NCBI GenBank assembly: GCA_025463565.1
Contig: JAODAT010000152.1
Span: 1-32,206, forward strand
From: Microbacteriaceae bacterium
GTDB taxonomy: Bacteria > Actinomycetota > Actinomycetes > Actinomycetales > Microbacteriaceae
Direction of reading: 5' to 3'
Length of the DNA stretch: 32,206 bases
Shown: in pieces, positions 1 to 4,417 of the stretch
How positions within the stretch are numbered: position 1 is the stretch's first letter
Layout of the letters: every line of letters begins with the position of its first letter
The notes under the pieces: model-generated
The model's input: only the letters and a program-made list of their open reading frames with translations
The model's database searches: none
Told to the model about the DNA's origin: nothing
Position numbers and translations under genes: made by a program

Positions 1-544
1 CGACGGGATCGAGGGTGGCGAACGGGTAGCTCGGAGCTGACACCACCACCAGTGCGACGTCGTCGGCCAGCGCGGCGACGAGGGCCGCGACATCCAGCAC
101 CCCGTCTGGAGAGACCGGGATGAGGTCCAGTTCCAGGCCGAAGTAGTGCGCGGCCTTCTGGAAGGCGGCGTGCACCGTCACGGGCGCGACCAGCCTGGGA
201 GTGCCGGTGCCTCGCCAATTGTCGCGTGCCGTCTTGACGGCGAGCAGGCAGCTCTCAGTGCCGCCCGTCGTGACCGAGCCGACCACGTCATCCGAACCGT
301 GCAGCATCGTGCGGGCGAACCCAACGACCTCGCGTTCCATCACCGCCACCGAGGTGAACGTGGTCGGGTCGAGGCCATTGACCGGCTGCACCAGCCGAAT
401 TGCGGATGCCGCCAGCTCGTCGAGCTCGGCGAGTCCCGAATCGTAGACATAGGAGAGCACGTGCCCGCCGTGGGTGGGGGCGTCCGCTTCGCGAAGCTCT
501 TCGAGGGCGGCGAGGATGTCGGACGGGCTCTGCTCGAACCTCAC
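1..544 (-). CDS. PLP-dependent decarboxylase, sphingosine-1-phosphate-lyase-like (partial, 3' end outside window)
   Basis: The first about 181 residues of a fold-type I pyridoxal-phosphate enzyme are present and the frame stays open to the window edge. The segment GGTESCLLAVKTARDNW matches the phosphate-binding GGTES motif of the group II decarboxylase / sphingosine-1-phosphate lyase branch. The stretch VNGLDPTTFTSVAVME and the HAAFQKAAHYF region also fit that branch. The catalytic lysine would lie beyond the edge, so activity cannot be checked. The GTG start overlaps the TGA stop of the upstream transporter by 4 bp (GTGA, 541–544), so the two are very likely translationally coupled and co-transcribed. 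Substrate is not evident: amino-acid decarboxylation or lyase cleavage of a phospho-amino-alcohol are both possible. The pairing with a transporter suggests uptake followed by catabolism (inference). Confidence 0.84.
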   Translation of the reverse strand, partial: MRFEQSPSDILAALEELREADAPTHGGHVLSYVYDSGLAELDELAASAIRLVQPVNGLDPTTFTSVAVMEREVVGFARTMLHGSDDVVGSVTTGGTESCLLAVKTARDNWRGTGTPRLVAPVTVHAAFQKAAHYFGLELDLIPVSPDGVLDVAALVAALADDVALVVVSAPSYPFATLDPV

Positions 545-1923
545 GCGGCTGCCTCCGACTGCGCGGCCACGACCTGAGCTGCGTCGATGTCGGCCTTGCG
601 CAGGCGATAGCGCCTCAGCGAGACGAGGCTCGCCGCCATGAACACGGCCGGAACCACACTGAACCCGAGCACGATCGCGGCGACGGCCGACGGCGGCTGC
701 CCGACGCTGTGGCCCGCGGTCGTGGCGATGTAGCCGCCGATGGCGAGCGTAATTGTCAGCACAGCGGCGCCGATCGCCGTGCCCATGGTTTCGCCGGCCG
801 TCCACACGCCGCCGAACGACCCGGCCCGTCCCTCACCGTTCGCTCGCGCGTCGTGCGAGATCACATCGGGGAGCATTGACATCGGCAGCGACTGCATGCC
901 CGCGTAGGCAGCACCGGCAAGGGCGACGGGCGCGTACACCCAGGCGCCCGGGAACCAGACCAGCAGCACCATGCTGAGCGCGGCCAGCCCGAAGAGGATC
1001 GACGCGAACACGAAACTGCGCTCCTTGCCGATGCGACGGGCGATCACCGCCCAGATCGGTGCGGCAACCAGCGCCGGAGCGATGAGGGCGACGAACAGGA
1101 ACGTGACGGCATCCTCGCTGTGCAGCACCCAGGTGGCCACATACTGCGCACCACCGAGCATCAGGCCGGTCGCGAGAGCCTGCAGGAAGAACGTGAACAG
1201 CAGCGCACGGAACGGCTGGCTGCGACGGAGCGCGCCGAAGCCCTCCACATAGTTCGCCCGGATGGACGCTCGTTTCAGCGCGGACGGTTCGACCAGGCCG
1301 CGCTTCGCCGTGAAGCTCGACACGAACATCCCGATGCCGATCACAAGTCCCGCAACGACCGCCATCAGCAGGTAGCCGAGATGTTTGTCGGCGCCGCCCA
1401 GCTCACGCAGGGCCGGGCCGCCACCACCGAACAGCAGGATGGCGAGCGTCAGCACCACCACGCGCCAGGAGAGCAGGCGGGTGCGCTGGTCATAACCCTT
1501 CGCCAGTTCCGCCGGGAGGGCGATGTACGGCACCTGGAACAGGCTGAACGCGGTGGCGGTGAGGATGAACGCGACCAGCACCCACAGACCCGACACGACA
1601 GGGTCGAGGCCACTCGGCACCGCGAACGTGATGATGAAGAAGACCGGAAGCAGCACCGCTCCGAGCAGCATGTACCGGCGGCGCGAACCCGTCACCGCAA
1701 GACTGTGATCGCTGCGTGCACCGATGATCGGATCGATGATGACATCCCAGATCTTCGCGCCGGTCACCAGGGCGCCTGCGGCGATCGCCGCCACACCGAG
1801 GGTGTCCGTCAGGAAGTAGATCAGCACCAGCCCTGGCAGGGTCGCGAAACCGCCGGTGCCCAGCGAACCGATCGCGTAGCCGGCCACGGTCTTGCGGGTG
1901 AGGACTCCGTCGTCGTTGCTCAT
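541..1923 (-). CDS. MFS transporter of the glycoside-pentoside-hexuronide (GPH, MelB-like) type
   Basis: A 460-residue membrane protein with about twelve hydrophobic segments, the usual length for GPH cation symporters. Early in the protein KIWDVIIDPIIGARSDHS carries the family's DPxxGxxxD loop motif, and PYIALPAELAKGYDQRTRL matches the second family motif (PYxAL..E...Y..RT). These transporters move sugars or related small molecules with H+ or Na+. The start at ATG 1923 is chosen because a TACACT box (1930–1935) lies exactly 6 nt upstream and no Shine-Dalgarno is present, so the mRNA is probably leaderless. The open frame continues upstream to about 2502, but that part is antisense to the TIR gene and is not believed. 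The gene is coupled to the PLP decarboxylase downstream. Substrate unknown. Confidence 0.9.
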   Translation of the reverse strand: MSNDDGVLTRKTVAGYAIGSLGTGGFATLPGLVLIYFLTDTLGVAAIAAGALVTGAKIWDVIIDPIIGARSDHSLAVTGSRRRYMLLGAVLLPVFFIITFAVPSGLDPVVSGLWVLVAFILTATAFSLFQVPYIALPAELAKGYDQRTRLLSWRVVVLTLAILLFGGGGPALRELGGADKHLGYLLMAVVAGLVIGIGMFVSSFTAKRGLVEPSALKRASIRANYVEGFGALRRSQPFRALLFTFFLQALATGLMLGGAQYVATWVLHSEDAVTFLFVALIAPALVAAPIWAVIARRIGKERSFVFASILFGLAALSMVLLVWFPGAWVYAPVALAGAAYAGMQSLPMSMLPDVISHDARANGEGRAGSFGGVWTAGETMGTAIGAAVLTITLAIGGYIATTAGHSVGQPPSAVAAIVLGFSVVPAVFMAASLVSLRRYRLRKADIDAAQVVAAQSEAAA

Positions 1924-1946: not shown

Positions 1947-2042
1947 CTCGTGGGCGTCGGGATGTCAGCGGTCGAAACGGAAGCGGAGCTTCGCAAGCTT
2001 CCTTATTCGACCGCTGACACCCCGACGCCGCTTGCCCACGAG
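1947..2042. repeat. Long imperfect inverted repeat / hairpin between MFS and TIR genes
   Basis: The outer arms CTCGTGGGC (1947–1955) and GCCCACGAG (2034–2042) are perfect complements. The next 21 bp (1956–1976) pair with 2006–2026 with one mismatch, leaving a 7-nt bulge (2027–2033) on the right arm. An inner stem GGAAGC (1979–1984) / GCTTCC (1997–2002) closes the top. The whole folds as one hairpin of roughly 95 nt. It lies upstream of the divergent MFS and TIR promoters, so it is not a normal terminator for either. It could be a MITE-like remnant, a structured RNA or a regulatory cruciform. No target-site duplication is seen at the ends. Confidence 0.75.
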
Positions 2043-2190: not shown

Positions 2191-3255
2191 ATGCCCGAAA
2201 TAACAACGAAGTGTTTCATTAGCTACCACCGCCCAGACAACAGCGATTTTTTGGGTGTCGTCGACAGACTCAAGTCCGAAATTGGTGGTCGATTCGCGGC
2301 CCGGACGGGTCGCTCCCTTGAGATGTTCCTCGATCGCGACTCGATCGGCTGGGGTGCAGATTGGCGCGAGCAGATCCGCGCAAGCGTTCTGGGCGCAACC
2401 TTCTTCATGCCCGTAATTACTATGCGCTTCTTCCAAAGTGACGCGTGCCGGGAGGAGCTGACAGCTTTCTACGAGAACGCTCGCGAACTGGGTGTGACGC
2501 AACTAATCGTCCCAATCGTGCTCGCTGGATCTGCGCAAATTACCCCGGATCACCCTGACGAGTTAGTTCGGCTCGTGGAGGGCCTCAACTACATTTCGAT
2601 CGAAGGCGAGTGGGAGGCGGGCTACGAATCGACCCAGTGGGTCACTGCGATAAACCGAATGATTGAAAGTGTGTCGGGCTATCTCGAGGATGCGGAAACC
2701 CTGCTCACCGCGCGGGAAACGGAATTGACCGATGACCGAGATGCTGACGAGGGAGCTGACCTGGAAGCCCTAAACACGGAGGTGAATTTCGCGAGCGAGA
2801 GCCTCATAGAAGCCACTTCATCAATGTCCGCACTTAGCGCTGCTTTGAATGAAGTGACGGAGGAGGTCAACAATGAACCTTCACCTTCGGCGAAACGCGC
2901 TAAGCAAGTTCGTGGTTCTCTTCGCATCAAGCAGGCCGCGGAGGACTTCGCATTGAAGGCGTCAACGATGGAGCGTCGAGTTGCGTCGACCGACGTTCAA
3001 CTTCGGGCAGTCATTTCGGAATTGCGCGACATTGGGAATGAACTCGCGCTTAGCAATCTTGCAAAGCTCACTACTCCCCTGCAAGACTTCCCGACTCAGT
3101 TACCGCCCCCGTCCGTTATCGATGAAGCAATTTCCGGCCTGCGCTTCGCCTCGCTCGGGAATATCCACATGAGACGCGCCCTGGAGCCAGCGCTAAGAGG
3201 AATGCAGTCGATGAGGGCAGGGATGGGAACGGCCCGTCTCTGGGCTTCGCTCTAG
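2191..3255 (+). CDS. TIR-domain protein with C-terminal helical region; candidate anti-phage NADase effector
   Basis: 354 residues. Residues about 6–155 form a bacterial TIR domain: CFISYHRPDN (8–17), LEMFLDRDSIGWGADWREQI (43–62), and SDACREEL (83–90). E89 is in the position of the catalytic glutamate of NAD-cleaving TIRs (SxxCxxEL motif). Residues about 160–290 are rich in A/E/L/S and look like long amphipathic or coiled-coil helices. A proline break (PLQDFPTQLPPP) leads into a last helical segment. No signal peptide or membrane segment is seen. Base composition differs from its neighbours: 2221–2280 has 32 G+C of 60 and 2821–2880 has 29, against 43 of 60 at 1021–1080 in the MFS gene. This suggests transfer. 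It stands alone, convergent to tatB, with no ThsA, NLR, pAgo or CBASS partner visible. Bacterial TIR proteins often deplete NAD during phage defence; that role here is inference. Start chosen by the leaderless -10 box; ATG 2161 is the alternative. Confidence 0.9.
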   Translation: MPEITTKCFISYHRPDNSDFLGVVDRLKSEIGGRFAARTGRSLEMFLDRDSIGWGADWREQIRASVLGATFFMPVITMRFFQSDACREELTAFYENARELGVTQLIVPIVLAGSAQITPDHPDELVRLVEGLNYISIEGEWEAGYESTQWVTAINRMIESVSGYLEDAETLLTARETELTDDRDADEGADLEALNTEVNFASESLIEATSSMSALSAALNEVTEEVNNEPSPSAKRAKQVRGSLRIKQAAEDFALKASTMERRVASTDVQLRAVISELRDIGNELALSNLAKLTTPLQDFPTQLPPPSVIDEAISGLRFASLGNIHMRRALEPALRGMQSMRAGMGTARLWASL

Positions 3256-3336: not shown

Positions 3337-3699
3337 CTACGTCGCCTCACTGTCGTACGGCGCGACCGCACCGGGAGCCATCGGACTACTCGGCTTCACT
3401 GTCGACCGGGCCGCAGGACGCACTATAGGTGCGCTGTCACCTGAACCGTCGTCCAGCAGAGCATCGCGAATGATGCGGCGCGGGTCGTACTGGCGCGGGT
3501 CGAGCTTCTGCCAGTCGACATCGTCGAACTCCGGGCCCATCTCTTCACGCAGCCGATCACGAGCGCCGTTGGCCATCTCACGAAGAGAACGAACGAGACG
3601 CCCCAGCTGGGCGGCATATTTGGGCAGGCGCTGCGGACCGAGGATGATCACGGCGATAAACCCGATCACCAACAGCTTCTCGAAGTCGAGCCCGAACAC
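3337..3699 (-). CDS. tatB: Sec-independent protein translocase subunit TatB
   Basis: 120 residues with the TatA/B architecture: a short N-terminal VFGLDFEKLL, a single transmembrane helix to about residue 20, the GP hinge (G21–P22), an amphipathic helix (about 23–55) and a hydrophilic, unstructured tail. The F-G-L-D-F-E start and acidic E7 favour TatB over TatA. It works with TatA/TatC to export folded proteins with twin-arginine signals; the EfeB peroxidase in this window is a likely client. The GTG at 3699 is preceded by TATCCT with a 6-nt gap, indicating leaderless initiation. It is divergent from the O-methyltransferase. In M. tuberculosis the same two families flank sigE, rseA and htrA, and those three are absent from this interval. 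Confidence 0.92.
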   Translation of the reverse strand: MFGLDFEKLLVIGFIAVIILGPQRLPKYAAQLGRLVRSLREMANGARDRLREEMGPEFDDVDWQKLDPRQYDPRRIIRDALLDDGSGDSAPIVRPAARSTVKPSSPMAPGAVAPYDSEAT

Positions 3700-3778: not shown

Positions 3779-4417
3779 GTGTCCGATAAAGAGGCGAGCT
3801 GGAAGTTCGCGGAAGACTTCATCGTCGAACGACCCGACATCGCCGAAGCACGCCAGCACTCGGTAGAACTCGGCATCGACGCGGTCAGCCCCGCAACGGG
3901 TGCGCAACTCGCTGTGATCGCCGCCGCGACGATTGGTTCAGCCGTCGCCGGCAGCATCATCGAGGTGGGCACCGGCGTTGGGGTGAGCGGGCTCTGGATG
4001 CTCGCCGGCGCCCCGCAGGCGACCCTGACGACAATCGACGTCGAGTCGGACTACCAGGACTCCGCGCGCCGCGCATTCCTCGAAGCCGGCATCGCCGCCA
4101 ACCGCATGCGGCTCATCGCCGGTGATGCGGGTGAAGTGCTGCCCCGGATGAACGAGGCGTCCTACGACATCGTCCTGGTCGACGCAGACCCGAAGTCGGT
4201 GATCGAGTACGTCGAACACGCACTACGGCTGGCACGAATCGGTGGGACGGTTCTCGTCGCACACGCCCTGTGGCGCGATCGGGTGGCTGACCCCGTTCAA
4301 CGGGGCGACGCCGTGACCGGCTTCCGTTCCCTGCTCAGGGAGATTGCGGCATCCGATGCCGTGATCAGCGCCCTGTCACCGGTCGGCGACGGGCTGCTGC
4401 AACTGACGAAGCGCTAA
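3779..4417 (+). CDS. SAM-dependent O-methyltransferase (COG4122, catechol/caffeoyl-CoA OMT-like)
   Basis: 212 residues. SAM-binding motif I is IEVGTGVG (about 61–68); the acidic end of the next strand is TIDVES (about 85–90); VLVDADP (132–138) supplies the D-x-D typical of metal-dependent small OMTs. The start is GTG 3779 because a near-ideal AAGGAG lies 6 nt upstream; an ATG at 3722 would bury that site inside the gene. Members of this family methylate hydroxyls of small aromatic or other acceptors, and the substrate is unknown. It is divergent from tatB (gap 3700–3778) and convergent with the DUF3117 gene, with 19 bp between stops. Orthologous placement next to sigE/tatB in mycobacteria suggests an old actinobacterial neighbourhood. 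Confidence 0.9.
   Translation: MSDKEASWKFAEDFIVERPDIAEARQHSVELGIDAVSPATGAQLAVIAAATIGSAVAGSIIEVGTGVGVSGLWMLAGAPQATLTTIDVESDYQDSARRAFLEAGIAANRMRLIAGDAGEVLPRMNEASYDIVLVDADPKSVIEYVEHALRLARIGGTVLVAHALWRDRVADPVQRGDAVTGFRSLLREIAASDAVISALSPVGDGLLQLTKR

Follow-up and report, generated by a model that had tools for sequence, protein, structure and literature searches.

A stand-alone TIR protein with a conserved helical C-terminal domain as a candidate single-gene immune effector

TIR domains are a common thread of immunity in bacteria, plants and animals; for many of the bacterial proteins, the way in which an infection is sensed is an open question. The same question is raised by a gene in a 32,206-nucleotide stretch of a Microbacteriaceae genome (assembly GCA_025463565.1, contig JAODAT010000152.1, positions 1 to 32,206; hereafter the window), which encodes a TIR domain followed by a long helical tail. 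What could such a protein do by itself, and what is the tail for? We see an even chance that it is a horizontally acquired single-gene immune effector, in which a NAD-cleaving TIR domain would be joined to a sensing and assembling C-terminal domain (CTD). The sequences themselves show a TIR domain and a CTD, a conserved glutamate, and a tail that is kept among relatives together with an invariant tryptophan; they also show that the family is distributed patchily, in part on mobile elements, and that no partner gene recurs.

The TIR domain and its helical companion

A chance open reading frame was ruled out, because homologues with 40-43% identity span nearly its whole length (L003, L045-L047). 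The product matches the Pfam model TIR_2 above the gathering cut-off (E 6.8e-11, 43.1 bits, gathering score 28) and, with a TIR fold, belongs to the TIR superfamily. A scan of named genomes with a six-member alignment returned 48 loci, of which 40 combine TIR and CTD according to a profile of 13 members (CTD threshold E≤0.01); five of these 40 are the same proteins as rows of that profile. The eight loci with no CTD match are L076, L082, L086, L087, L088, L090, L091 and L092, two of them (L087, L090) cut by a contig end. Alignment A4 unites 35 of the 40 loci with two viral loci and the window protein, L060, L065, L071, L075 and L089 being left out as broken, cut or partial, and all 38 members match TIR_2 at E≤0.01.

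The preliminary description of this DNA had placed a candidate catalytic glutamate, E89, in an SDACREEL motif. The motif reads S83-D-A-C-R-E-E89-L, and E89 is invariant in 38/38 members; in profile alignments it falls on the glutamate of solved TIRs (4c7m) and of Cat1, a column that we take to be the catalytic one in TIRs. Also invariant are F46, D48, W54, G55, T77, C86, R87 and W351, while R328 is kept in 35 of the 38. The TIR domain is probably a NAD-cleaving enzyme that uses E89.

The AlphaFold2 model of the protein (mean pLDDT 89.3, pTM 0.67) is all-helical from about residue 148, slightly ahead of the residue 160 estimated before, with helices at residues 148-184, 191-227, 232-281, 284-299, 307-321 and 325-353. 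By hydropathy the CTD contains no membrane-like stretch (maximum 0.75), and it matches no family in the databases searched. It is nevertheless shared with relatives. On a model of L045-L047 the CTD of the window protein scores 97.2 bits, the best of 300 shuffles 9.1. To see whether the likeness reflects more than a coiled-coil composition, a CTD model was built from 33 members outside the clade of the window protein. It gave 42.3, 26.3 and 24.3 bits for the window protein's three nearest relatives, which are the proteins of the first model, with 19.3 bits as the highest score among 543 controls that were reversed or shuffled, but -0.6 bits for the window protein's own CTD. Aligned with each other, the clade profile and the family profile match along 158 columns that reach to the tryptophan (hhalign 96.1%, E 3.4e-9; 0.9% when reversed). 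Because of this alignment and the score on the clade model, sequence comparison places the window protein in the TIR-CTD family as a strongly diverged member. In 703/703 pairs the CTDs, the fast-diverging part, resemble each other less than the TIR domains do (median 22% versus 43%).

The CTD profile also matches chemoreceptors and designed helical bundles, and individual members match ZorA or SMC models; as reversed CTDs reach 19.3 bits on the CTD model, these matches were discounted as coiled-coil likeness. Hits to proteins with no TIR domain were likewise not accepted as members. The strongest hit, L025 (E 4.9e-7), has 1,120 residues and is matched partially at several places; it was excluded together with its second match L041 and with L026-L037, L039, L040 and L042 (E 1e-5 to 9e-4). 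When the CTD by itself was searched for across the order (396 genomes, no more than seven candidates scored per genome), no convincing CTD separate from a TIR domain emerged.

The coiled-coil-like character of the CTD, with its low-level matches to chemoreceptors and designed bundles, would also suit a catalytically inactive or non-immune TIR that acts as scaffold or regulator. In a structural comparison over approximately residues 4-169 the fold also resembles that of adaptor TIRs such as MyD88, and the activity of TIR-CTD is so far a predicted one. On the other hand, the invariance of C86, R87 and E89 in all 38 members from several phyla would be hard to explain if no chemistry were involved, and the distribution is patchy, with a protein match in 13/398 genomes of the bacterial family, the own genome included. 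We regard a scaffold role as improbable.

A scattered family and a probably acquired gene

Members of the TIR-CTD family belong mostly to Actinomycetota, in many orders, and also to Nitrosomonas; further ones occur in bins named Zoogloeaceae, Methylomirabilis, Planctomycetota, Chloroflexota and Dormibacterota, several relatives being metagenome bins whose contigs may be misassigned. On viral contigs TIR-CTD was found in 2/4 cases (L094 and L095 gave no CTD match). The family is scattered but rare, with 2/396 genomes across the phylum at E≤1e-15, including the own genome. In the tree, Micrococcales members cluster more than shuffled labels do, yet the starred branches still require at least three changes, and members of widely separated clades occur in two Agromyces species; following the warning of the tree tool itself, this pattern is no proof of transfer.

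In five members (L010-L013, L072) an AAA_14-DUF4143-type part precedes the TIR domain. These fusions of about 800 residues form one supported clade (100/96); the assignment is based on Pfam for L011 and, for L072, on a model of the other four (E 2.4e-66). Shorter matches to the N-terminal model were obtained for L022-L024 and L038. We recognised no paper on the TIR-CTD family in searches of the open-licence PubMed Central literature, and a literature search for DUF4143 together with a TIR domain found nothing. Judged from its sequences, TIR-CTD is an undescribed family. The TIR type of the family also occurs with a different C-terminus, in L133 on the Agrobacterium plasmid pAtCG920; that gene has a DUF262 gene and another TIR gene as neighbours and an integrase gene about 3 kb further on, and the locus resembles a small defence island.

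The composition of the window gene sets it apart. Compared with 21 other window genes, whose borders were set by hand, its G+C content is 0.565 versus a mean of 0.662 (sd 0.022, z -4.5), and at third codon positions 0.630 versus 0.854 (sd 0.039, z -5.7). Per 60 bases the gene contains 29-40 G+C (mean 34.2, 17 lines), and the mean outside is 39.6. The preliminary description, with 29-32 against about 43, had the direction right and overstated the size. Low G+C is shared within the family, since 30 of 33 judged loci have the gene more than 3 G+C points under its distant flanks.

The gene and its surroundings are laid out in Table 1. No match to the window protein at E≤0.001 was found in 12/12 genomes of the same genus, of which seven are at least 90% complete and five under 90%. 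Sixteen loci were compared across 15 relatives, the 12 same-genus genomes contributing 13 of them. The tatB-like and O-methyltransferase-like genes occur together in 16/16 loci and the TIR gene in 0/16, three of these loci extending just 1.8-3 kb on that side. The MFS gene is present at 1/16 (L112), about 6 kb from tatB. Since the 12 same-genus genomes lack a close homologue of this gene and three other genera have one (65-71%), the TIR gene lies at the edge of an accessory segment that reaches the contig end. The 3' side of tatB varies among four listed relatives (L097, L099, L105, L112), of which two agree; by eye, SDR and LysR genes stand there in two genomes, and the remaining two have an argininosuccinate-synthase-like gene and a large regulator gene, respectively.

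A prophage around the window gene was ruled out, as the neighbours read as housekeeping genes and neither a tRNA nor an Rfam match at gathering scores was present. The inverted repeat upstream is not a dispersed element: its pattern, with a tolerance of 3 mismatches, matches once in the own genome and imperfectly, also once, in 1/4 relatives. Taken together, horizontal acquisition is the best reading of low G+C, absence in the genus and the variable tatB site, as the preliminary description had supposed. The findings it had named as speaking against its view were not seen: the gene is not kept at this place with matching composition in the relatives, the tail matched no known non-defence family in the databases searched, and E89 aligns with the conserved TIR glutamate.

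Table 1. Positions of the TIR-CTD gene, its parts and its surroundings in the window
Feature	Position	Strand	Remarks
MFS transporter gene, upstream, divergent	541..1923	-	close homologue in 0/12 same-genus genomes; accessory segment
24-nt inverted repeat between MFS and TIR genes	1953..2029	.	96% complementary, 29 nt between arms
TIR-CTD protein gene	2191..3255	+	354 aa plus stop; Pfam match, homologues
TIR domain, residues 1-148	2191..2634	+	
E89 codon, candidate catalytic glutamate of C86-R87-x-E89 motif	2455..2457	+	invariance, profile alignment
Helical C-terminal domain (CTD), residues 149-354	2635..3252	+	predicted model, CTD homology tests
W351 codon, invariant tryptophan near C-terminus	3241..3243	+	38/38 members
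tatB-like gene, downstream, convergent	3340..3699	-	conserved edge of site
O-methyltransferase-like gene	3779..4417	+	conserved anchor beside tatB

Proposed mechanism and genomic context

Catalysis, sensing by the CTD, oligomerisation and protection against phages are what we infer for the TIR-CTD protein. We propose that the CTD would keep the TIR domain inactive until a trigger derived from a phage or another invader binds or displaces it. Released TIR domains would then assemble into composite active sites, as they are known from other TIRs, and NAD+ would be consumed or converted to an ADP-ribose signal, while the infected cell would halt growth or die before the phage matures. NAD cleavage and phage defence are predicted here from sequence features, and the scattered two-part relatives, some on prophages and plasmids, suggest a candidate single-gene phage defence. 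The "undescribed single-gene system" of the preliminary description is plausible. Of its interpretation, acquisition, the aligned glutamate, the stand-alone layout and a tail of no known family have held; what changed is that the tail also proved to be a conserved domain of a scattered, partly mobile family.

The stand-alone layout concerns first the window gene itself, flanked by the divergent MFS gene and the convergent tatB-like gene and by no known partner. For the relatives, 42 loci were analysed with 6 kb on each side where present, several with little flank, and neighbouring genes were predicted by a home-made codon-usage caller and no standard gene finder. Eight clusters comprise three or more loci, and none recurs as a partner, so that a conserved partner gene was ruled out. 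The two largest (5 loci each) contain a dehydrogenase-like and an ABC-ATPase-like gene, both at least 1.8 kb away; the SLATT, Rep-like and integrase clusters comprise 3 loci each. In 22 of 32 judged loci no predicted gene on the same strand lies within 100 nt.

A SLATT_3 protein is encoded within 0.5 kb of the TIR gene in 3/42 loci (L055, L069, L083), corresponding to 3 of the 121 neighbours scanned (set A6; of 127 neighbour genes in 38 loci, six were excluded for length). This is relevant to the possibility that the TIR domain, as in Thoeris, makes a nucleotide signal by which a second protein, such as a SLATT membrane protein, is opened or activated, this effector being encoded elsewhere or lost here. 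PMC9503650 reports that TIR genes of Firmicutes phages adjoin SLATT genes, and PMC9122126 that the TIR of phage AC1 has transmembrane partners. Because of the three SLATT neighbours and the TIR-SLATT modules, the strongest competing view is a TIR that signals to a responder encoded at a distance. However, 39/42 loci, several with little flank, showed no such neighbour in the clustering. The own genome has no SLATT_3 match, an absence that is weak since 14 controls were also unmatched. We consider this alternative unlikely, if less so than the scaffold role.

Mobile-element or phage genes lie near the TIR gene in at least 9/42 loci, a lower bound for which some queries were drawn from those loci themselves; the same queries gave 0 matches in the 16 tatB-site loci. 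The genes concerned are an rve transposase (L045), a serine recombinase and a Rep-like gene (L046), a TrwC relaxase (L049), Rep-like genes (L061, L069), tyrosine recombinases with a weak phmmer match (L078, L080), a prophage repressor, metalloprotease and integrase, the TIR gene standing directly behind the integrase (L093), and head, portal and terminase genes (L096). TIR-CTD could serve such elements as an addiction, superinfection-exclusion or plasmid/prophage-maintenance factor, with the same chemistry and another beneficiary, as integrase, replication initiator, relaxase, transposase or phage genes near these loci would allow. Against this, the genes of the window and of L047 stand alone among chromosomal-type genes, and no antitoxin-like partner recurs. 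This explanation seems to us about as improbable as a scaffold role.

Single-gene defence also has to face contrary observations: few relatives reside in prophages, and the neighbours of the window gene are housekeeping genes. A set of 50,697 phage records contained no match to three different members. A broader version, which is tentative and which we hold for less probable, sees in TIR-CTD a widely scattered, undescribed one-protein immune sensor-effector, whose CTD would directly recognise a phage product and switch the TIR domain on, and whose core would have been plugged into the AAA_14-DUF4143-TIR-CTD form and occasionally set beside SLATT effectors.

Some neighbourhoods deserve a separate mention. 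In Agromyces seonyuensis (L045, 6933-10250) the TIR gene lies directly behind a seemingly shortened T2SSE-type ATPase gene, and the gene after it has a sub-threshold HEPN match. In Lentzea californiensis (L068) the gene immediately upstream of the TIR gene encodes a DnaJ-NERD protein, and in Lentzea pudingi (L070) the upstream gene is of equal length.

Comparison with known TIR systems

According to PMC11312562, it had not been known until the finding reported there how bacterial TIRs recognise an infection. Occurring in isolates of several actinobacterial genera, a protein as short as this one, with no partner and a single putative sensing or assembly domain, would offer a simple system in which to look for a trigger. 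Defence surveys may miss or mislabel the window protein, since PADLOC-DB 2.0.0 gives only a match of the TIR stretch to the candidate model PDC-S66 (profile positions 151-240 of 282, E 1.8e-6) and no full-length match; PDC-S66 is matched at E≤0.01 by 38/38 members.

Among named TIR models, FxsC (NCBIfam NF040588) is the nearest by score (E 1.2e-9 for the window protein, 1.2e-16 for L057), yet membership was ruled out by 38.4 bits against a cut-off of 130. The C-termini of the FxsC-type proteins compared here gave no CTD match; the one exception, L125, belongs to the TIR-CTD family itself and scores far below the FxsC cut-off. The alignment with the CRISPR-associated TIR protein Cat1 is confined to the TIR region, and the CTD is unmatched by sequence. 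In contrast to TIR-APAZ of SPARTA, the window protein contains no APAZ by Pfam, and no Argonaute-like gene was recognised in the window when its open reading frames were read by eye. ThsB of Thoeris shares the TIR domain, with a weak profile match to the window protein (E 0.011), but Thoeris was ruled out as no ThsA-type gene is adjacent, the MFS and tatB-like genes taking that place. The TIR-SLATT phage modules of PMC9503650 resemble three of the 42 relatives in that a SLATT protein is encoded next to the TIR; no such neighbour was seen beside the window gene or in the other 39 loci.

A close parallel is the TIR-NLR of P4-like satellites (PMC9122126): one gene, an N-terminal TIR domain, a mobile setting and a C-terminal part thought to sense. 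TIR-NLR has a STAND NTPase and TPRs, and the window protein has neither by Pfam; the absence of a STAND/NACHT NTPase also ruled out a TIR-NLR or AVAST-like assignment. By analogy, the diverged CTD, the lack of a membrane stretch and the few close genes on the same strand would fit a one-protein abortive defence like that of the TIR-NLRs, operating with no NTPase.
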